64,000 nucleotides of DNA from NCBI GenBank assembly GCA_021030905.1, contig JAGFMI010000007.1, forward strand, positions 434,001 through 498,000. Direction: 5' to 3'. The notes beneath the pieces were generated by a model. It saw nothing but the letters and a program-made list of their open reading frames with translations. It was not told the origin of the DNA and ran no database searches. The translations under genes were made by a program, and so were the position numbers. Below, one piece after another: positions 5,285 to 62,826 of the stretch; the first letter of the stretch is position 1, and every line of letters begins with the position of its first letter. Source of the DNA: Pyrenula massariospora. Lineage: Eukaryota > Ascomycota > Eurotiomycetes > Pyrenulales > Pyrenulaceae.

Positions 5285-7336
5285 ACAACTTTCCTGTCTC
5301 TCTTTTTTCGTAGCAGGCGACGACTGCTTTGGAGCCCGTGGGAGGGTAGGATTCACTGGTAACGAGGTTTTTCTGGAGGTCAATTGGTTCAGGACATTTT
5401 TTCGTTCAAAGATCTTTCTTATTTTATATATCTAGATCGTTTTCCCTCCAAATTGGTATCGAGGGCTCTAGTTTATAGGGCTCGGCGTTTCTACGTCTAT
5501 AGATGATCCATTTCACAAAATTTCGTATCACCGATTCCTTTTCAAGCTTACCCGATCTCGTCGACCTGGGTCGCCAACACGCGGATACTTGAAGCAATCA
5601 TCCCTCCTCGACGATATTCCGCCCGTTACTATACAAAAACTAATATCAGGGACTCCTGTAACCAGCCCTTTCCACGGGGCCCTTGACCACGATCGATTCG
5701 ATTTGAGATCGTTACGTTTTCCGATCCTGGCAATCAGCATGCATCTGACATGTAGTCTCTCACGGGGTCAACGGGGGGGGGGAGAGTGTCCTTGTTCTGA
5801 GCGGTCTTCTTGGCTCTGAGAGGGGGTGGGGGGGGAATTGCCTCTACTCTTAGTGTGATCTCTGGGCTCTTGCCTCCTCGCCTTGCATCCCCGGGGCTCA
5901 GGGATGCGAATAGAAAAGCGCCAACAGCGGTTATGTCATCGTTCATCAATAAAGTACTTTATTATTCATCCAGTCAGTAGGCGCAAGCGTGTAAGATGGC
6001 AGCCCCGTCGATCCGGTCGCAATTCCCACTTACCTATGCCCGTTACCCATGGGTAAAAGTCGCCGCCTATGCCCGGTCGCGTACTGGGCCGGATGGTCTG
6101 CATCGGCCGGCATATGATGACTAACAACTCCGGACAGGGGAGGGGGGGGGGCAATGGAGTTTGAGGGTTACGATTCTCCCCGGCCCGGCAGCCACTGGAA
6201 ATAGAGGGTGTGGGGGTGTACTTACGGCCCGCTGTGGAGGCGGGGGGGGGAGCTGAGGGGGAATTGTTGGAGAGAGAGAGAGATGGGTAAGAGGGAGGAG
6301 CTAGTGATGACAAAGCGAGGTTTATCCACAGAGCGTGGCTTCTCAACTCCGGTCGTCCGCGCCAGAAAGACCACGTGGGAAAAAAGCGCACGTGGCATCA
6401 CAGTCCCGGCCAATTGACGTCGGAAGCGCTTGTATTGGTGGACAAGGTGCATGGGGTCGTTGTGCCCTGACGCTATGACAATGCGTTGAGCATGACAATG
6501 CATGAGCATGGTGGGGCGATAACTAATACGAGAAAAAAAATCCTTTTCTATATCTATCCATTTTTATATTATCATTGTACTTTAATATTCAAATTTTATT
6601 TATAATAATAATTAAAAAAACAATTAAATATATGAGTGGCAAGCCAGTAGCTAGAATCACGTGACCTAGCCTTGTGTCACGAGGCTGTGCGGCCGTAGTT
6701 CATTCTAACCGTTAAAGACGGTGGATCTCATATATCAAATTTCCAGCCCGACCTGCTTTTTTGCAATCGGCGATATCAGGCCATTCGACCCCGAGAAGCC
6801 CGTCACGAAAGTAACGTAAACAAGTTCTTTCCTCCAGCTCTCAACACCCCAAAAGGTACGCGTTTTCCCCGTCCCGCCATTTTTCCCTTCTGCAGAATAG
6901 AGCCAATCCTCTCTCTCGAGACAAGCGACATCGCTCAAAGAGATTTGTAATTCGATTCGATTCGGTTTGGTTCTGCTCCTTCTCCTCCTCCATACAATGT
7001 ACAATACTTTTTACACAACCGCCCCCCCCCCCGACCATGTCGCGGAGCGAGCTGGACCTCCATATGGGCCTGAGATGCCGGGGGCTGGGAGGGCTGGGGG
7101 CGTGGATATGCAGGGCACAGGAAGATCATGTCCATGATCTGGTTCGAAATATTGACAAAGGGGGGGGAGGGGAATAGGCGTTCAAACGCCGAAAACTGCC
7201 GAGTCACGTCATGTACCCGGCCCAGGTATAAGCCTTGAATGATACAAGGTATCTGAATAAATCGAGATCTTTCTATTTTATATAGCGTTTTGCCATTCCC
7301 GTCCCCACCCCCCCAAGGCCTGAATCCCGCCAAGTG
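5285..7336. other. Intergenic region between convergent PKS and regulator genes
   Basis: No convincing gene. It contains several G or C homopolymer runs (around 5777, 5830, 6146, 6241, 7021 and 7160) and a strongly AT-rich island at about 6530-6640. It should carry the terminators of both flanking genes. Confidence 0.6.
6530..6640. other. AT-rich island
   Basis: About 110 bases that are almost only A and T, with runs of A and stacked AATAAT/TTTAT words, inside otherwise GC-balanced intergenic DNA. It could be a terminator/matrix-type region or the remnant of a decayed element. Confidence 0.5.
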
Positions 7337-16713: not shown

Positions 16714-18988
16714 TCAGACAAGTTCTACAGCAACCTCGTCCGCATCTTCAAAATCAAAAGTGGGCCGTCGGAGACATCCACAGCCAATCCGACGAAACTT
16801 GCGCAAGCTATTCACTCCTCCACCATTTCCAATCTCATCTAGCACCAGAAATGTCGGCGTCTCACCGCCCTCCTCGACCGAAACCCAGAGCTGTAAACAC
16901 CAAACGGAAATCAGTTCTGCGCGCGGGAAATCCTGGTCTTCATCCAAGCGAACCACGAAAGTGTCGCTGTTGTGAGATTCTTCGGTGCCTTCTTCGTGCA
17001 GTCTTCGCCTGAACCAATCGTACTGGAAGGGGATTTTCTTTAAGGGGCCTGAGAGGATGAGTTTTGTGGAGAGGATGGAGGAGAGTAGGGGGGAGCCGGT
17101 CCAGTGAACTTGGACGTCGAGGATTGAGGCGGTGGTGTGTCGGGATAGTGAGGGTTTGTTGGAGGGCTTCTGCTTTGGTGGGGTTTCAGGGCGGGTGGAT
17201 GGAGATGCCTCTGCTTCAAAAGTGTCGGTTGCCGTCCGCCGGAGTGACGCGCTTTGTTCTTTACTGGAAGTAATTTCTTCACCTAGTGAAACGTCGTCCT
17301 CCTGGTAGTCAGCTTCCTGTGGAAAGTCGGATTTTTGTGAAATGTCGTCGTCTTCATCGCTTTCCTCTGAAACATAGCCACCTCTCTGAGCTTCAGAGCC
17401 CATAAAATTCAATATCTCACAGTCTCCGATGGACATCCAACTCCACGTGGGCATGTTAAGGATATTCGAGCGTTGAGGGTTAGCAGATCCGAGCCCCATC
17501 TTTGTCCTACCCGTGTGCCACGCAAGATCGTCCAAGAGCGTTTCTTTCCAGAGACCAAGAACAGGGGTTAAACCGGTTGTCTCTTGATATCTCCTCGTGA
17601 CTCCAATCAACGCAGGTAGTCGATCTGACGATTGAGTGAAATTCCTCTTGCTGAAGTCTTGTACCCACAGCCACCATGGATTAAGACTTTTTGTTTGGAC
17701 AGATCTTGGACGATTAAGTTTTCTCGTCCCAGGCAAATTCAGCGCCATGTCATGATCGATGAAGCCGTCTTCGGAATAGACTCTGGTACTACATTGCCAA
17801 TAGAACTGATTCCTACCACAGTAAAGGACCCGAATAGGTAGCACCAATTCCTGAAAGATCCAGCCCCGAGTGTTGATATGCGAGTCAAACACGTCTGCCG
17901 GATGGGCAGCCAAGGCCCTGATCGCCAGCTGCGATCCATTCCGTAGTCGGACGTGGGTCGCCGGTTTCCGCCGATAGAGAGCGCAGCCGCCGTTGCAGTT
18001 GGGCGAATCAAGCGCCACGATGTTGAGATAGCTACCCTCGTATATATCGCCCATTCGGGCAGCTTCTTGGCGCCAGTCGTCTTCGTCGTCCTGAACTATA
18101 CATAAGCTATCTATCCAGATGTAAGAAATACCGACGGCGAGAGAGATCCTAATTGCGTCTCTAAATGTCCGGGGCAAGTAATGCAGTGTCACACCTTCGC
18201 TGTGCGTTTTCTCGGTTTCTTTCGTCGTCTGAGTAGGTTTCGAGCCTTGTTCCAGTCCCCACCGGTGGCTCAAAGTCGTGTATGCGAAATGGGTAGAGCT
18301 TATCTTCTCTGTGTACACTAGCCGCGGGAAGCACTCTCCGTTTTCTTCGTGCAGAAGAATCAGTCGTGTTGGGAGCTCACGATTCGGTCGTACCTGGGGC
18401 TTGCATTTATCATGTCTATCATTGCAGTCGTGCAGCCAATCTTCGAGCACTGGCAATCGATCCTTAAACCTGATGCGTTCTTCAGCAGCCCAAATCTCTC
18501 TGTCCCGTATCGGACCTGTTTCGCGGTCAAATGTCTGTATCTTACATATGCCTAAAGCCTGAATACCAACCAATTCCCAACTCTTTCCTAATCAAAAAGC
18601 AAAAATACGGATCATCGGGATACTCTCCAATCTTGATCCTTCCCGCCACGATCCCAGCCTCCTTCATAGCAGCGTCAGACCAAAAGCGGCTCGACCCTCG
18701 CCATACATCGATTTCATAACTATCAAAGGTCATATCCCCACCAGTCGCTTCGGTCTCCCGCCAGACTCTCGGCGCTTTCAGGTGCTCGTCCGTCGCCTCT
18801 AACAAATCGGCGCAGACGGGACATGATCCTGCGGAGTCTTGAAGTGAGTCGAAGAACTCGTAGTGCTCGGGAAAGTCGCGCTGTCGATTTTGCTCGGGGC
18901 TCAGTGTCTTTGGGTCCGAGGAGAGGAGCGTGAGAAGCGGGTTGCAGTAGTCGCAGAGCCGCGATCCCACGGGCGCCTCGTCCGACAT
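16714..18988 (-). CDS. HET-domain protein (heterokaryon incompatibility type)
   Basis: About 732 aa. Exons: 18546-18988 and 16714-18469, joined across a 76-bp intron (donor GTAAGA, acceptor CAG; phases agree). This join is the best of several possibilities because it restores a FKDRLPVLEDWLHDC segment typical of the stretch before a HET domain. The N-terminus has two Cys pairs (CDYC, CPVC). The HET domain begins at FAYTTLSHRWG and continues through LPRTFRDAIRISLAVGISY, IWIDSLCIVQDDEDDW and GDIYEGSYLNIVA, then NTRGWIFQELVL. The C-terminal third is acidic and low in complexity. HET proteins trigger cell death on non-self recognition or act as fungal NLR-like effectors (family knowledge). The partner or allele here is unknown. 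Start: the first in-frame ATG. Confidence 0.85.
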
Positions 18989-21749: not shown

Positions 21750-24700
21750 ATGTCACCTTCACCCGACCGTGACACGAAAGTGGCCAAAAGTTTGCCTAGC
21801 GGTGCGAACGAAGAGAAAGATGATGTCCCTCCGAACGTAGCTGCGAGGCGGCGCATACGCTATTTCGACGACACCGAAGAAGGGCAAGTTGAAGTACATC
21901 GCCCAGAAAACGAGGTTGGTCTCTCCCTCTCTCGCCGCACTTCAAGCTTCTCGATACGTTCGGCACCGAGTTTGCAGCGCGGAGACCGAACCATCAACCC
22001 AGCTTTATCGCTACCCATTTCGTACCGTACGGTCAGCTTCAATATCTCAAATACTCAAGAGAGGGCTACTTTCGAGGTTAAGAAGGCCAAGCAGGCGGCC
22101 GAGCAGGGTGATGTGTTCCGATCCGGGAGATTGTTCAAGCTTGATTAACTTCGTCCAGTTTTTGGTGATTCAAAATGGCATCTCTATACCCATGAAGAAA
22201 TCTATAAGAAGTTGACTGTTGACCCAGGTGTCGGGCTCGGTCAAGTAGACGTCAAAGAGAGGATCCAGAGGTGTGGTCGCAACATTCACTCGCCACCACC
22301 GTCTCGGTTGTTTCAGCGTATTTTTTGGTACTGCTTTGGCGGATTCGGTACAATCCTCCTTGGTGGTGGCATTCTTGTCTTTATTTCCTGGAAGCCTCTT
22401 GGCAACCCCCCAGCAGTAGCAAACCTTGCTCTAGCAATTGTTCTAATCGCCGTTTTCGTTATTCAGGCTCTCTTCAATGCGTGGCAAGACTTTTCATCGT
22501 CACGCGTGATGAGTAGCATCACTGGCATGCTTCCGGAAGACTGCATTGTTCTCCGTGATAGAGAAAAACACATCGTACAGGCACAAGATATTGTGCCAGG
22601 CGACATTCTCTACTTCAAAGCTGGCAACAAGATGCCAGCTGATGTGCGCTTTTTAGAGGTTTCGTCCGATGCGAAATTCGATCGAGGTATCCTGACAGGC
22701 GAATCTTTACCAATCACGGCAGTAACCGAATCTAAGGAGCCAAACTACTTGGAGACAAAATGCATCGGTCTTCAGGGTACACATTGTACCTCGGGGACTG
22801 GTATTGGAGTGGTAGTGGTGAGTTCATGATTAGATTTAAGGCGTTCTGTTCTAAGTTCTGTCCAGTCAACCGGCGATGAGACGGTATTTGGACACATCGC
22901 GAAGCTTACCACCCAGCCATCTTCAGGCCATACGAACTTGCAAAAAGAGATCTTGAGATTCGTTTTCATCATTTCTGCCTTGATGATTACGATGGATTTG
23001 GTTGTAATTGGCGTTTGGGCTGGCTATATTCGGAAAACGCATGGAGACTACATGCCGCCTAGTGTTCTAATCGTTAATCTTGTTAGCATTGCGATTGCGT
23101 TCGTTCCAGAGGGTCTGCCAATCGCTTTGACCGCTTCACTCACTATAATTGCGAACACGATGAAGCGCAATAAGATCCTTTGCAAATCCCTCAAGACTGT
23201 GGAGACATTGGGCTCTGTCTCCGTACTACTTTCTGACAAGACGGGAACCCTAACTAAGAACCAAATGGTGGTGACTGATTGCCTGGTGGGATTAAGTACA
23301 CTGACGACTGACGAAGCAGGCAAGGCAGTAACGACAGAAATACAACGAGCACTTAAACAGCTGCAGGTTGTTGGATGTGTGTGTAACGCCGGTGACTTTG
23401 ACTCTAAAACTATCGCATTGCCATTAGTGGAACGCAAGATTTTCGGTGACGCCACAGACCAAGCAGTCCTCCGATTCTCTGAAATGCTGGAACCAATCAC
23501 GCAATCGAGAAGCCTATGGAGAAAGCGCTTCGAGCTTCCTTTCAATTCAAAAAATAAATTTGCACTTCAAATTCTTTCTGCGGATGACGATCACGCGGCC
23601 GTATTAAGCTTGAGTTCGACAGAAGCCAAATCTTTCAACGCGAAGGATGATATGGTCCTTTTGATGAAGGGTGCCCCTGACATAATAATATCTAGATGTA
23701 GCAAATACGTTGGTAAGGACGGTGAAACGTATGAGCTCGATGAAGGCGCCCGCGCTTTAATTGAAAAAGTTAAGAACGCATGGTCAAGCGATGGTAAACG
23801 AGTCCTTCTCCTTGCGCGGAAAGTACTTCATGGACGCGAAATTACCGTTGATCCTAGCAATGGCGATTACGAGCCCGAAGCGCAAAACCACGTCAAAGCC
23901 GGTCTTACATTGATCGGTCTAGTCGCTATGACCGATCCACCTCGCGAAGAAATACCAGGAGTTATTGAAACCTTGCGGGGTGCAGGTGTCCGAACCATGA
24001 TGGTCACTGGCGATTTCGAGTTGACAGCGCAAGCTATTGCCAGAGCCTGTGGTATTGTCACGTGCGCCAATAGCGAGGTACACACTGTGAATGATCTGCC
24101 TCGTAATCCGGAGAATAGCTTAGACTCAAAAAACCGGGTCGGAATCTCCCAAGCCATTGTACTGTCTGGATCACAGCTCAGAGCACTGACATTGCACCAG
24201 TGGTCATTGCTTACTCAATATCCCACCATCGTATTTGCTCGGACCACCCCCGACCAGAAGCTTCTGATCGTCCAGCGTTTTCGAGCTGCAGGATATGTAA
24301 CCGCGATGACGGGGGACGGCATCAATGATGCACCATCGCTAAAAGAAGCGGACATTGGCATCGCACCAGGCTCAGGCTCTGATATCGCTATGGAAGCTTC
24401 AGATATGGTACTCCTCGCGTCCTTCTCCTCGATTATCCCAGCCGTTGCATACGGTCGGTGTGTGTTCTCGAATCTCAAAAAGACCATCGCCTACCTTCTG
24501 CCTGCCGGCAGTTATTCCGAGTTCTGGCCTGTCCTAACTTCGGTGATCTTCGGCCTTCCGCAAATCCTAAGCTCCTTTCTCATGATCATCATTTGCTGCT
24601 TCACGGACTGCGCTGCAGCAGTGGCCCTGACATATGAAAAGCCAGAAGCAGATCTACTTCTCCGCCCACCACGGAACGTGAAGAAAGATCATCTAGTTGA

Positions 24701-25226
24701 CTGGCGGTTTTTGCTGCACAGCTACATCTACACTGGTACTCTAGAGACGCTCACGAGTTTTTCGCTGTCATATTGGTATCTTCAACGGAAAGGAATTACA
24801 TTCGGTTCTCTCTGGTTCAGTTTCGGCAATTACACCACTCCGCGCAGCCACGAAGGCGACAAGGATTATGTCACGAACCATCTCGCCACCGCGTCAGGCA
24901 TTTACTTTGTGACCCTGGTCGTGCTGCAGTTTTTCAACCTCATGGGTGTCCGCACACGGGGACTTTCCTTGTTCCAGCACCCCCCTGTCGGGAACAAGGA
25001 CACGAAGAATTTGTTGCTCTTCCCTGCTATTGTGTTTGCGATTGTGGTCGCAGTCATCTTTGTCTACGTTGGCGGCGTACACGAGGTTGCTGGAAGTGGT
25101 GATGTGCCGGCGGAGTATTGGTTTCTGCCTGTTGCATGCGGGTTGGGACTCTTGGCCGTGGAGGAAAGCAGGAAAGCGGTGGTTAGACGCTGGCCGAGCG
25201 GGTGGTTGGCAAGACTGGCTTGGTAG
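21750..25226 (+). CDS. P-type cation ATPase, type IIC (Na+/K+-ATPase alpha-like)
   Basis: Cation-pumping P-type ATPase of about 1125 aa. Exons: 21750-22107, 22159-22817, 22866-25226 (introns 51 and 48 bp; phases agree). The N-terminus is cytosolic and basic. The splice restores an actuator lead-in (KWHLYTHEEIYKKL), followed by PPPSRLFQRIFWYCFGGFG and membrane helices 1-2. Motifs: actuator LTGES; PEGLP in helix 4; phosphorylation site DKTGTLTKNQM; KGAPD nucleotide-binding loop; TGDGINDAPSLKEADIGIA hinge; and six C-terminal membrane helices. Overall sequence follows the animal Na+/K+ and H+/K+ alpha subunits (IIC) rather than fungal Pma1, ENA or Ca pumps. No beta subunit gene is visible here. 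Ion specificity cannot be read from this. Confidence 0.92.
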
Positions 25227-56683: not shown

Positions 56684-58472
56684 TCACCTCGTCCTCTCCC
56701 CGCCGCCCCCAGACCTCCGCATATACACCCCTAAAACCCCTACCGCAACCACCGTCACCGCCCCCGCCACAACAACAAGCACATAAACGCTCGCCATGCT
56801 CTCCAGTATCGCCCTCAGCGCCTCCCCCCTCGTCCGCTCATCCAAGCTTGCGAGATCCTCACTCCCCACCCCCGCCACCACGCGCAGCACCCGCACATCG
56901 CCCGGCAAGATGCGCCGCAGCCTCCCCACCGCCCGATTCAAAAACACCGCATTCGCCACCCCCAGCGTCACCGCGGGGGCCGCCAGCTGCGCGCCCGTGA
57001 TCAGCCCCACCGCGGCCGGGATCCGCGCGGGCTCGACGAAGGTCTGCGCCGCGTGGAAGGGCAGCTGGATGTAGGCGCCGGCGCCGGCGCCGACGAGCAC
57101 ACTATAGCCGTAGACGCGGGCGGCGGGGGTGTGGTGGGTGTTGGAGAGGGTGGAGAGGAGGGCGCCGCCGAGGAGGACGAGGGTGCCGCCGTAGAGGAAG
57201 AGAGGGAGCCAGTGGGTGCGTTTGGTGGCGACGAGGAGGGCGGTGAGCTGGACGGTGAGGACTAGGGTGCAGATGAAGGGGAGGAGGTAGAGGCCGGCTT
57301 TGAGGGGGGAGGTGCCGTGGAGGTATTGGAAGCTAGGGGTTTTGTTAGGGTCTGGGGGAGGGGAGGGGAGGGGGGAGGGTTGGAGGGGGAGGATTGTGTG
57401 CATGGATGGTACTTACTAGAGAGGGATAAAGTAGATGGGGAGGAAGCAGGCTGTTGCTGAGCATGTCTCACAGACGAAGATGGATAGGATGTTGAGGTTC
57501 TTTAGCAGGCTGATGGGGAGGACTGGATGCTTTGTGAAGAGGCTCAGTGCTTGCTGGAGGCCAAAGGTAAGCGTGCAAACGCCTGCCACAACAAATAACG
57601 CGATCGTACGGGCAGAATCCCACGCGTACACCACGCCGCCGAAGCATATGCCCATGATCAGCGAGGTCGCCGCCCCCGCCAGGAGAGCCACCCCGACCCA
57701 ATCGACATTCTTGAGCCGCTGCTTCGCAGTGGCGCTTGGCTGCGGATCAATCGAAGGGATTAGAAAGATGTAGACTGGCGCACATGCCGCCCCAACGCAG
57801 AGGTTGATATAGAACCCCCATCGCCATGTCGCGTGAAGAGCAAATGCACCCCCGATGACTGGTCCCAAGACAGTCCCGATTCCCCAAGTGATCCCAGGAA
57901 TACCCATATAGAGAGCGCGTTTCTTCTCCTCGGTCATGAGGGAGAGTAGCGTCAAGACGCCAGTGTACATCCCGGCACCTCCTACGCCGCAGATGGCTCG
58001 GCCGGCGATGAGAACGGACTCAGATGGTGCTGCGCCGCAGACTGCGGAGCCGATCTCGAAAATGAGAACGCAGAGGATGAAAACCCATTTGGCATCGAAG
58101 TGGCTATAGACTTGTCCCCTGTGATTGAGTGGCTTGCTGTTAGATTTTCGTAGGACTTCTATAGCCGCTATAATGAATGACTTGCCATGACAGTACAGTT
58201 GCGGCAGCGCCTAAGAAGAATGCCACTGAGTTCCACGCCAGTTTATCAATGGCGTGGAATTCATCGACAAAGGTGGCTTGAATGTCGGCGACGATGGTGC
58301 CATCGAGACCCCAGAGGAAGGTAGCTGAAATGAGTGCGAGGACAACAAGCAGCAGGCGGATACCGTGGATCGAAGTGTTCGAGCTCTGCTGCTCATCACT
58401 GTCGTCAAAATGCGAATTGGTCTTCTCAGAATCGTAATGTGGCAGAGCAGTTGCCTTCTCTGCGTCTTCCAT
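56684..58472 (-). CDS. MFS transporter, drug:H+ antiporter type
   Basis: Membrane transporter of about 545 aa. Exons: 58186-58472, 57417-58118, 56684-57332. The first intron (58119-58185) uses a GC donor (GCAAGT) with AG acceptor: only this gives LSWGQVYSHFDAKWVF, a conserved transporter reading. The second intron is 57333-57416 (GTAAGT; phases agree). After a polar N-terminus, LLLVVLALISATFLWGLDGT IVADI starts helix 1 with the DGTIVA motif. GRAICGVGGAGMYTG matches helix 4 and GITWGIGTVLGPVIGGAFA is the antiporter motif C. At least 12, more likely 14, helices. DHA2-like family members export toxins and metabolites (family knowledge). The substrate here is unknown. It is next to and codirectional with the NO synthase gene. 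Confidence 0.9.
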
Positions 58473-59438: not shown

Positions 59439-62400
59439 TTAGCCCGCATGAAAGCTATCCTGAATGTACCGCTCTCCTAGTGCTCTCCTGACATCACAAC
59501 CAACCACCGCGCTGAGGTCAACCGCGACAGCCTCCGACGTCATCAGATTTGCGCACACAAAGATGTACGCACCATTCTTAATCTTGGCCACGATCTTTTC
59601 GCGTACACCAGGCTGGAACACCTTGTCCTGAGCGCGGACTCTGTGCTCATTGCTAGGCGTCAGAAAAAGCATGTCCAGTAAATTGCATGAGATGGCTTCA
59701 GCTAGACCTTCTTGGATGAGCTGCGTATCTGTAGGGCGAAAGCCAATGAAGAGGCTGATCTGATTTTCAAACGGGTGACGACGCTCACCATGAGCATTTC
59801 GGACCTGTTGCGCACGAGAACGGAGAAGGCTCTGCATGGGAGCGAAGCCGGAGCCGGTGATAAAGGCCACAAGAGGTGCACATGTCGGATCGCAGAGTTT
59901 TCGGAGAGGTATAGCTGGTTCAATCCGGCATCTAATGTTGACCCCAGGTTTAGCGGAATTGAGAAACTTCTCGCTAAACTTGCCGTTGCGTTTAAGTTGA
60001 ACGAGAAGCTCAAGCTTGGACTTTGATATGCCTAGGTTGCTGGCATCTGGGATTGAAGCAACTGAAAAGGTTCTTGGATTAATTGTAGGCATGCTGATGA
60101 GAATGTCATCGACGCTGACCTTTCTTTGCCATCCCAAGGGCAATGCGCGAAGGACTTCTGTCACCGGTAGCCTGCAGATTGTGTTCGTATCAAAAATTCC
60201 AAGCTTTTCTATCCAGCCAGTTTCTGCAAATGGTTTTTGCAGCTCCACAAAATCTTGAAGGAATTCGAAATAAGTCACGTTGTCAAGGCTTGTCATTTTG
60301 TCATACGCTCTCTTTCCTAATGTTCGAAGGAGCTTTTTCACTTGTCGATCCTCGTTAGGCACAAGAACTAGCAGATGATCCATCGCTGTGTAGGGCTCGC
60401 AGGTTTGTAAAACAACCTTCCTAAGACCGCGATGAATGTCTGCAGATATGAGCTGAAATCGCTGATACGACCGAACTGTTGTCTTCAAAACCTCAGTACG
60501 TGGCTTCTTGTCGATAAGGTCCTGATGAAAGCCGTCGACTTCAGCATCTGGGCCGCATATCTTCTGTGGTAGATTCTTCATCCAAGAATCCAGGGCTTTC
60601 CACGGTGGGCTTTCCTTCGCATTATCACCCTCCGCGTAGCCCTCACCTAACGAATTGAAACCTGCATCTTTGAAAAGACTATGAAGACTTCGAGCCGCGC
60701 CGTTGAAAGAGTCTGCGTAAGAGCTATCGCCGTTACCAAAGACGACAAAGCGCGATTTCGCATCTCGAGCTATTCGAAGGGTTTCAACCGCTTTCTGTCC
60801 ATTCGATGGTACATCACCTCGACCGGTTGAGCTGGAAATAACGATAATGATATCATCCGATGTTAGTGCCGCCAAATCTAATGAGTCTAATGGCAAAGTA
60901 GGTCGAATTTCCAGCTTTAAATCATCGAAGTTAAAAGTGTTATGCAAGAAGTCTTGGACAGCATTGGCAAGCTTGACGGCAATGGTCCCAGAGCTGCAAT
61001 AGAAGACAAAGATCCGGGCTTTGGCTTTTGTGTTGTGCGGACTACTAGTCTTAGAGTCCAGATCTTTGTTTTTGCTTGACTGTTGAGGCATGCTCCAGCA
61101 TCCACGTCGCCGTCGTTTCCACGCTTTGACTGGATCTTCTCGATGGCGGCAGATCATAGGCTTCGGCTGATAGTGAGGGGAGCCTCCTCGATGCCAAATC
61201 GGAACGATGGATCCCTGCGGTGGAGCAAGCCAATATGGATCGGCGGGAAGACGAAATCCGTACTTATTGAAGTGATCGTTGTCAAATTGACAGTAATTTG
61301 AGGATGCAGTCAATGTGTCTGACATTCGGACACCATCTTGTACGAAGGAGTAATGTACTGCAAAATTGAGCTCTGCTTGAGCACGGGACTATCCTTCCTG
61401 TAAGCTTCAACGACGTAACCAAGAATAACAATCCTCACGAGCATTGCAAGGCGTTCATATTCGGGAAGCTGCTCCAGTGGTCTCTCAAGTTCGTTCGCGT
61501 AAAGCTCTCTTGCAAGTTCAGGAAGCACGTTGTATCGACTCTCATCCGCGAGATTGCGGACTCCTATTTCCGCATCCATGAACCTATACGCTCCATTAGA
61601 GATATATTACGCAAAAATCACGCAGCCTCACCATCCAATAAAAGGCGCAGCCGTATACTGGACACCTCCAATATCGAAACCTAATCTACTTAATGCTGGT
61701 GCAGGCACCCATCGAAGTCCTAGTTTTGCGAAAGGTATTTCGTAGCGTGGATGGCGTATATGCACCAAAGGGAAATCTTCTTCTGACAAATCTGTAATGA
61801 CTGGCTCCTCACCATCAGCCATTGTGACAAGCGGCAAAAGATCCCACTTGGTTCGAAATTTTGGAGGCTTCCATCCCAAATCAATAATGCTTGCCGTGAG
61901 ATTCGCATTTAATGGATCTCCGAGAATCGAATCATCATCGTTCGTGTACTAGCTATGCCGGTGAATTTCACAATCCATCTAAGAAACGGGCTTCACTTAC
62001 CCCCGCAAAAGCTAACAGCTGCTGATTCCAAATCATCGGACCACTTTTGCCTGCTTGTCGCGGTGGGAACACGAACACTGCTTTTTTCAGATGTCTACAA
62101 GACACTTCAAGAAGATGCATCTTACCTGTTGGCAAAATATCACCTTGATTGAATGCCTCTTTCAATTTTTGAGTCAGGATTGTGCCCATGTCAGCACTGG
62201 TCTTCATGTGCCGCAGATCGCAGAGCCTAAGGGACAAGCATTAGAATTGGTCGTCTCTTAGTTAAAAGTTGAAGAAGTTACTGTAGGCTTTGATATTGAG
62301 ACCTCATGATACATTTTCGAGAGTGCTTCCATGCAGCCTTGATACCAAATTCAAGTTCTTTGGTTGTTTGATTCCAGCTATGAGCGCTCCTATAACCAGA

Positions 62401-62826
62401 CATCTTGAAGCTTGAGGGCTTTTCACTAACAAAGCCGGTTGGTGAGTTTGGGAGCTCTATGTCGTTATGGTTGTTGATTTCTTTAAGAACTTGTATCAGC
62501 CGGCTCTGGTATTCTTCATCATCTTGGAATAGATTCTCGCGCCGAATTTGCTTCAAGAAGTCCTCGGCTTCGGCTTGTATCTGATAAAGCGGTCGATCTT
62601 TCCCCACACGCGGCTCATCTGTGTGAATCATCCGGCCGGATTGGCAAAACCTTGCAGAGCAGCCAGTTGAGGCGAGGATAGGATAATGCTCCATAATTTT
62701 GCAGTACTCTTTCATCGTGGCCGTCTGCTTGGATTGTGAAGATGTACGGTGGATTTGGCCGCCATGAAGACAAAGTAAATCTTCATCCTGGGCGTATCGG
62801 TCTTGCGAGTGGTCTGCGGAGTGCAT
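59439..62826 (-). CDS. Fungal nitric oxide synthase, oxygenase plus reductase
   Basis: Makes NO and citrulline from arginine with NADPH and O2 (family knowledge); about 1050 aa. Exons: 62282-62826, 62001-62226, 61632-61948, about 61390-61583, and about 61330 down to 59439. The first three introns (55, 52, 48 bp) have agreeing phases; the fourth junction, between 61325 and 61400, could not be fixed. Oxygenase: zinc motif C56-x4-C61; heme ligand Cys172 in SRKCIMRSQY; FVFPPRQAGKSGPMIWNQQL; GWKPPK...WDLLPLV; RHPRYE; LGLRW; GGVQYTAAPFIGW; then after the splice FMDAEIGVRN with the arginine-binding Glu (about 368); YWLAPPQGSIVP. A basic linker AWKRRRR precedes the reductase: FMN motif FYCSSGTIAVKLA, FAD motif RTFS, NADPH motifs GSGFAPMQSLLRSR and GFRPTD, end GERYIQDSFHAG. 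The FMN part lacks the long autoinhibitory insert of animal constitutive enzymes. Order and motifs exclude P450 reductase fusions. Confidence 0.93.

Follow-up and report, generated by a model that had tools for sequence, protein, structure and literature searches.

Nitric oxide synthases (NOSs) are described in several architectures. The mammalian nNOS, iNOS and eNOS join an oxygenase to a reductase with a long C-terminal tail and an insert in its flavin mononucleotide (FMN) domain, the NOS of Synechococcus PCC 7335 (syNOS) is likewise a fusion of oxygenase and reductase, and the bacterial oxygenase-only NOSs have the catalytic core recognised by the Pfam profile PF02898. Passages of PMC12922734 describe syNOS as lacking both the FMN autoinhibitory loop and an equivalent of Arg1400, and as bearing a C2-like domain and an elaborated C-terminal tail; a globin domain is also ascribed to it in part of the literature. 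The NOS oxygenase accepts either tetrahydrobiopterin (BH4) or tetrahydrofolate according to passages of PMC6104048 and PMC12922734. For fungi, excerpts of a 2016 review hold that NOS orthologues are missing from the genomes, those of PMC4948021 speak of limited evidence for a fungal NOS, and those of PMC9324006 call the fungal arginine-to-NO (nitric oxide) question unclear. Parts of PMC4160249 place an NOS in Macrophomina, Neofusicoccum, Colletotrichum, Glomerella and A. oryzae while stating that few fungi have one, and in parts of a 2024 review close NOS orthologues are rare in fungi, although fungi with NOS-type activity are listed and some of the genes have been cloned (PMC10889981). Here we describe an NOS gene of the ascomycete Pyrenula massariospora, located on the minus strand of a 64,000-nucleotide stretch (contig JAGFMI010000007.1, C31 in the coordinates below and 1,451,853 bases long, positions 434,001 to 498,000; hereafter the window). 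It is quite probably a complete, single-copy fungal NOS that makes NO from arginine independently of calcium and probably with a folate-type pterin.

The coding sequence runs from an ATG at 62826 to a stop codon that ends at 59439. Splicing by hand removes five introns, all GT-AG and 48-55 bases long, and yields a protein of 1044 residues with no internal stop. Exon 1 with the start codon (62282..62826, 545 bases) is followed by intron 1 (62227..62281, 55 bases), whose removal gives the junction QSLQ/LCDLRH where relatives read KDLRLCDLRH or similar. Exon 2 (62126..62226, 101 bases) and intron 2 (62078..62125, 48 bases; junction ILPT/VFVFP, the same in relatives) precede exon 3 (62001..62077, 77 bases), intron 3 (61949..62000, 52 bases), exon 4 (61632..61948, 317 bases) and intron 4 (61584..61631, 48 bases; junction GW/FMDAEIGVRN). 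Exon 5 (61439..61583, 145 bases) contains the arginine-site Glu, and exon 6 (59439..61388, 1950 bases), delineated by its open frame, Pfam matches and splicing, holds the end of the oxygenase, the linker, the FMN domain, the flavin adenine dinucleotide (FAD)/nicotinamide adenine dinucleotide phosphate (NADPH) domain and the stop codon.

The original prediction, that oxygenase and reductase are joined in one full-length gene, is borne out at the sequence level by this splice (PF02898 301.7 bits, PF00258 47.1 bits), but its warning of a possible frameshift at 61325-61400 is not. In the raw DNA the frame does shift near 61388 and the upstream frame is terminated by a stop at 61310, which, taken as a one-base frame break, would part the oxygenase from the reductase and leave a pseudogene or two proteins. 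The region holds a fifth intron instead (61389..61438, 50 bases), similar in length to the other four and ending precisely where homology resumes. Its position at 61438-61389 follows from the relatives P0003, P0006, P0007 and P0011, which are contiguous across the junction EYERLAML/SRAQAELNF and show the same sequence pattern; that of Bathelium mastoideum (P0006) reads LALLSRAQAELNF. Removal of the intron turns two PF02898 pieces (257.5 and 36.9 bits) into one match that is unbroken across the junction, and with 1044 codons otherwise free of stops we reject the frameshift and consider a broken gene extremely improbable.

The PF02898 match that had been proposed as a check was obtained far above the cut-off (301.7 versus 22.7 bits, residues 148-465), and a piece of the oxygenase from which four introns had been removed found its nearest solved relatives in the heme domains of neuronal NOS (E 7.5e-54). 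All of the key residues named from the unspliced DNA are present in the intact copy and align with those of nNOS, and the motif GWKPPK is present too. Their conservation was assessed over 111 aligned rows, namely the window protein and those 110 out of 170 NOS homologues whose length reaches 950 residues or more. The C-x4-C pair (residues 56 and 61; 62644..62661), predicted to bind zinc, aligns with TGCTEHIC of nNOS and is Cys in 103/111 and 104/111 rows. The heme-ligand Cys 172 in RKCIMRSQY (62311..62313) is kept in 109 rows, the arginine-site Glu 352 in FMDAEIGVRN (61568..61570) in all 111, the pterin-site Arg 356 (61556..61558) in 110 and the pterin-site Trp 448 (61230..61232) in 111. All six residues occur together in 101 rows. 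Of the remaining ten, six are short of nothing but the N-terminal stretch and a seventh is short of this stretch and the heme-Cys column; in the last three, R356 falls in a gap, the heme Cys is replaced by Thr and the first zinc Cys by Lys, in one row each. The zinc pair, heme Cys, Glu and pterin residues are thus common to the window protein and the mammalian enzymes. With syNOS it has in common a Trp before the His at the end of the oxygenase, where nNOS has Phe; from the bacterial oxygenase-only NOSs it differs in having an N-terminal zinc hook and a reductase of its own.

A search of the whole genome (37.8 Mb in 33 contigs) with PF02898, in which the oxygenase-only NOSs of Bacillus subtilis and Deinobacterium both matched as controls, returned four matches, all of them exons of this one gene. 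No second NOS locus was found by this profile. The signal is far beyond chance, and the gene is the sole PF02898 locus found.

The reductase half is less orthodox. Its FMN (flavodoxin) domain (60549..61019) matches PF00258 with 47.9 bits before and 47.1 bits after removal of intron 5 (cut-off 25) and is seen in the structure model, which also shows the fold of the FAD/NADPH (ferredoxin-NADP reductase-like) domain (59448..60500). The diflavin layout is therefore present, recognised by Pfam for FMN and by predicted fold for FAD/NADPH. Among 88 aligned rows, the FAD motif RTFSVAS (60054..60074) keeps its R in 82 and its first and last S in 87 each, the NADPH loop GSGFAP (59838..59855) keeps both G in 88 and P in 86, and Arg stands at the Tyr position of P450 reductase (CYPOR) in 86. 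Against NCBIfam, 11 weak cross-matches were obtained, all under their own cut-offs and to models such as those of flavodoxin and CysJ. Structurally, chains of P450 reductase, P450 BM3, nNOS and CysJ tie as the best relatives of the FAD/NADPH halves, and the template modelling (TM) scores of the whole model from Foldseek lie at 0.36-0.44 (50 rows shown, normalised to the query). In the structure model, then, these halves are not NOS-specific among diflavin reductases.

No long regulatory tail is present. The protein ends three residues past the shield Phe (range 0-11 in the 88 rows), and the end of the model aligns with residue 1398 of nNOS (1tll), of which chain 8t1j has 1429 residues. The FMN-domain insert of the mammalian enzymes is also missing, and the window protein has no Pfam match to the globin or C2 domains known from syNOS, nor the long tail of the latter. 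The linker, 31-100 residues long across the 111 rows, is modelled as a short helix (residues 86-97 of the open frame) followed by a stretch (97-119) with a predicted local distance difference test (pLDDT) value below 50. With neither tail nor insert, and with a linker that is both short and poorly ordered, the enzyme probably does not depend on calcium-calmodulin to switch its electron flow. Judged from the alignments, the reductase is a fungal form that has diverged from the animal one, lacking its tail and insert and carrying altered NADPH-site residues. The description of the gene as 'animal-type' consequently holds for the oxygenase and the overall layout, including the reductase fold, but not for the details of the reductase, just as the reductase motifs read from the DNA proved only partly canonical.

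Which pterin serves the enzyme may be gauged from its partner genes. GTP cyclohydrolase I, split over two exons, and dihydropteroate synthase were found in the same genome. Neither the BH4 enzyme PTPS (9 of 14 prokaryote controls match), nor Biopterin_H (1 of 14), nor the NO sensor HNOB (1 of 14) was matched in six-frame searches of the genome. These searches proceeded exon by exon and ignored introns, so that a short, heavily split PTPS could be missed; the recovered GTP cyclohydrolase is the sole control for intron-interrupted genes. Because PTPS was not found, the NOS pterin is probably of the tetrahydrofolate type rather than BH4. A single globin match lies in a 415-residue open frame in which FAD- and nicotinamide adenine dinucleotide (NAD)-binding domains likewise score above their cut-offs, which identifies it as a flavohemoglobin, and four Mo-co dimer matches represent either nitrate reductases or sulfite oxidases. 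The enzyme would be a dimer, clamped by zinc at the N-terminus of its oxygenase, that forms citrulline and NO by oxidation of L-arginine at the Cys-ligated heme, with electrons passing through the fused reductase from NADPH via FAD and FMN. Rather than an HNOB-type guanylate cyclase, metal centres or the nitrosation of proteins would mediate the effects of the NO, and the flavohemoglobin would clear it.

Several observations weigh against such an enzyme. Where the arginine site of nNOS has Tyr (GWYMGTEIG), the window protein has Phe, as do 99/111 rows (Tyr in 10). In the reductase, the CYPOR Cys position is occupied by Phe (Cys in only 2/88 rows), and the Ser-Arg of the 2'-phosphate motif of nNOS and CYPOR has become Ser-Asn. 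PF00667 (16.9 versus a cut-off of 32.3 bits) and PF00175 (17.6 versus 22) score under their thresholds on the pieces obtained with intron 5 still in place; on the fully spliced protein PF00667 is not listed and PF00175 reaches 17.0 bits, and none of the ten FAD_binding_1 (PF00667) matches in the genome, the best at 222.6 bits, lies in the NOS gene. The positive controls of the PTPS, Biopterin_H and HNOB searches were prokaryotic. Excerpts of the 2016 review report that deletion of an NOS-like gene in Magnaporthe, which may or may not belong to this family, left NO unaffected, and in parts of PMC6681199 NO of the lichen Ramalina is not suppressed by N-nitro-L-arginine methyl ester (L-NAME) and involves nitrate reductase, which would disfavour a general lichen role for NOS should Ramalina carry the gene. 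The residue changes, which recur in most aligned fungal rows, together with the BH4 route that was not found, would also suit an NOS-derived enzyme whose main product is no longer NO, for example a superoxide-making NADPH oxidase or one that takes a different guanidine compound as its substrate. We think this unlikely: Glu 352, the heme Cys and the pterin Trp and Arg are kept in 109 to 111 of the 111 rows, and passages of PMC10889981 tell of several fungi in which NOS-type activity and effects of inhibitors were seen, with a cloned inducible-type NOS, perhaps of another family, reported to be active. The open-licence literature searched yielded no biochemical work on a purified enzyme assigned to this NOS family; the cloned or purified fungal NOSs of that review, which may or may not belong to it, come from other species.

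An arginine-dependent, NO-forming synthase thus remains the preferred reading, and the gene has many relatives. Two protein searches at E<=0.001 gave 249 and 285 matches, and many of the best 120 of each already carry the name nitric oxide synthase. The original prediction had considered an NOS notable because of its patchy occurrence in fungi; this argument is weakened by the 285 matches and by the names many of the 120 listed already bear, while the poorly known role is in line with passages of the reviews. Among the best 120 of 285, none combines an identity above 60% with an alignment covering more than 30% of its length. The closest full-length relatives among the matches listed are Bogoriella megaspora (P0003, 59%) and Bathelium mastoideum (P0006, 59%), both lichen-forming Trypetheliaceae, and Pyrenula sp. 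(P0007, 57%), labelled Eurotiomycetes; the Aspergillus niger NOS is 39% identical overall. Identity in the oxygenase (residues 40-490) is 72.3% to Bogoriella, 75.6% to Bathelium, 71.4% to Pyrenula sp. and 55.0% to A. niger, and in the reductase (515-1044) 51.1, 49.0, 49.8 and 30.4%, respectively. Domain order, key residues, similar length and a divergent reductase are common to the window protein and the records from Bogoriella, Bathelium, Pyrenula, Colletotrichum and Aspergillus.

In a quickly built tree of the window protein and 48 hand-picked named relatives (49 rows), the window protein groups with Bogoriella, Bathelium and Pyrenula sp. P0007 with a Shimodaira-Hasegawa-like approximate likelihood ratio test (SH-aLRT) value of 100; P0007 branches off first (92), and the tree does not settle the order of the other three. 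P0007 groups with Trypetheliales (Dothideomycetes) and away from Lithohypha, and two sequences of the basidiomycete Collybia (P0081, P0089) sit among lichen ascomycetes; these placements may reflect lateral transfer or mislabelled metagenome bins. In Hirsutella minnesotensis, the 1581-residue protein P0133 combines an NOS with two more Pfam domains (PF27041, PF27039) and may stem from a fused gene model.

Downstream of the NOS and on the same strand, the first gene recognised is an open frame for a major facilitator superfamily transporter (MFS_1, TRI12-like; 57416-58210), and upstream, just beyond the window, lie pieces of multicopper oxidases on both strands (L015 2424-3798, minus; 5486-7191, plus). 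Such an exporter on one side and oxidases on the other, and the nitrating cytochrome P450s found by NOS-guided mining of bacterial clusters according to PMC10831120, would fit an NOS that supplies NO to secondary metabolism, through nitration by a partner P450, rather than to signalling. We hold this to be improbable. Of the 102 P450 matches listed, the closest on this contig (C31:650216) is some 154 kb from the NOS; 92 of 262 candidates were scored, so misses are possible, and by this list a partner within about 150 kb was rejected. The frames scanned, which were 20 of the 29 other window frames of at least 200 residues and, in the next 20 kb, 6 of 7 and 4 of 5 of those with at least 150 residues, contain no synthase domain. 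Elsewhere in the window, a P-type cation ATPase (22149-25226, plus) comprises two open frames in the same frame, parted by a stop at 22827-22829 inside the E1-E2 ATPase domain, which points to a small in-phase intron or else to a broken gene; its three best matches reach 67-71%, and its best named ones (65 and 64%) are labelled Chaetothyriales. A heterokaryon incompatibility (HET) domain protein occupies a 625-residue open frame (16714-18591, minus), and seven open frames of 285-750 residues between 36375 and 55617 have no Pfam match at E 0.001.

The gene belongs to a kind already known from many fungi whose enzyme is hardly studied, and the rarity statements in the reviews look out of date beside the sequence databases. 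It is conceivable, although we put it at somewhat less than even, that the fungal NOSs form a large overlooked subfamily, calmodulin-independent, using a folate-type pterin and with a rebuilt NADPH pocket, which would be a main arginine-dependent source of NO in its carriers, lichen fungi included. If true, this would contradict the published view of fungal genomes devoid of NOS orthologues. With an intact NOS gene and no detected BH4 route, P. massariospora offers a clean subject in which to ask whether a fungal NOS is a real source of NO, which pterin it uses and what controls it if calmodulin does not.
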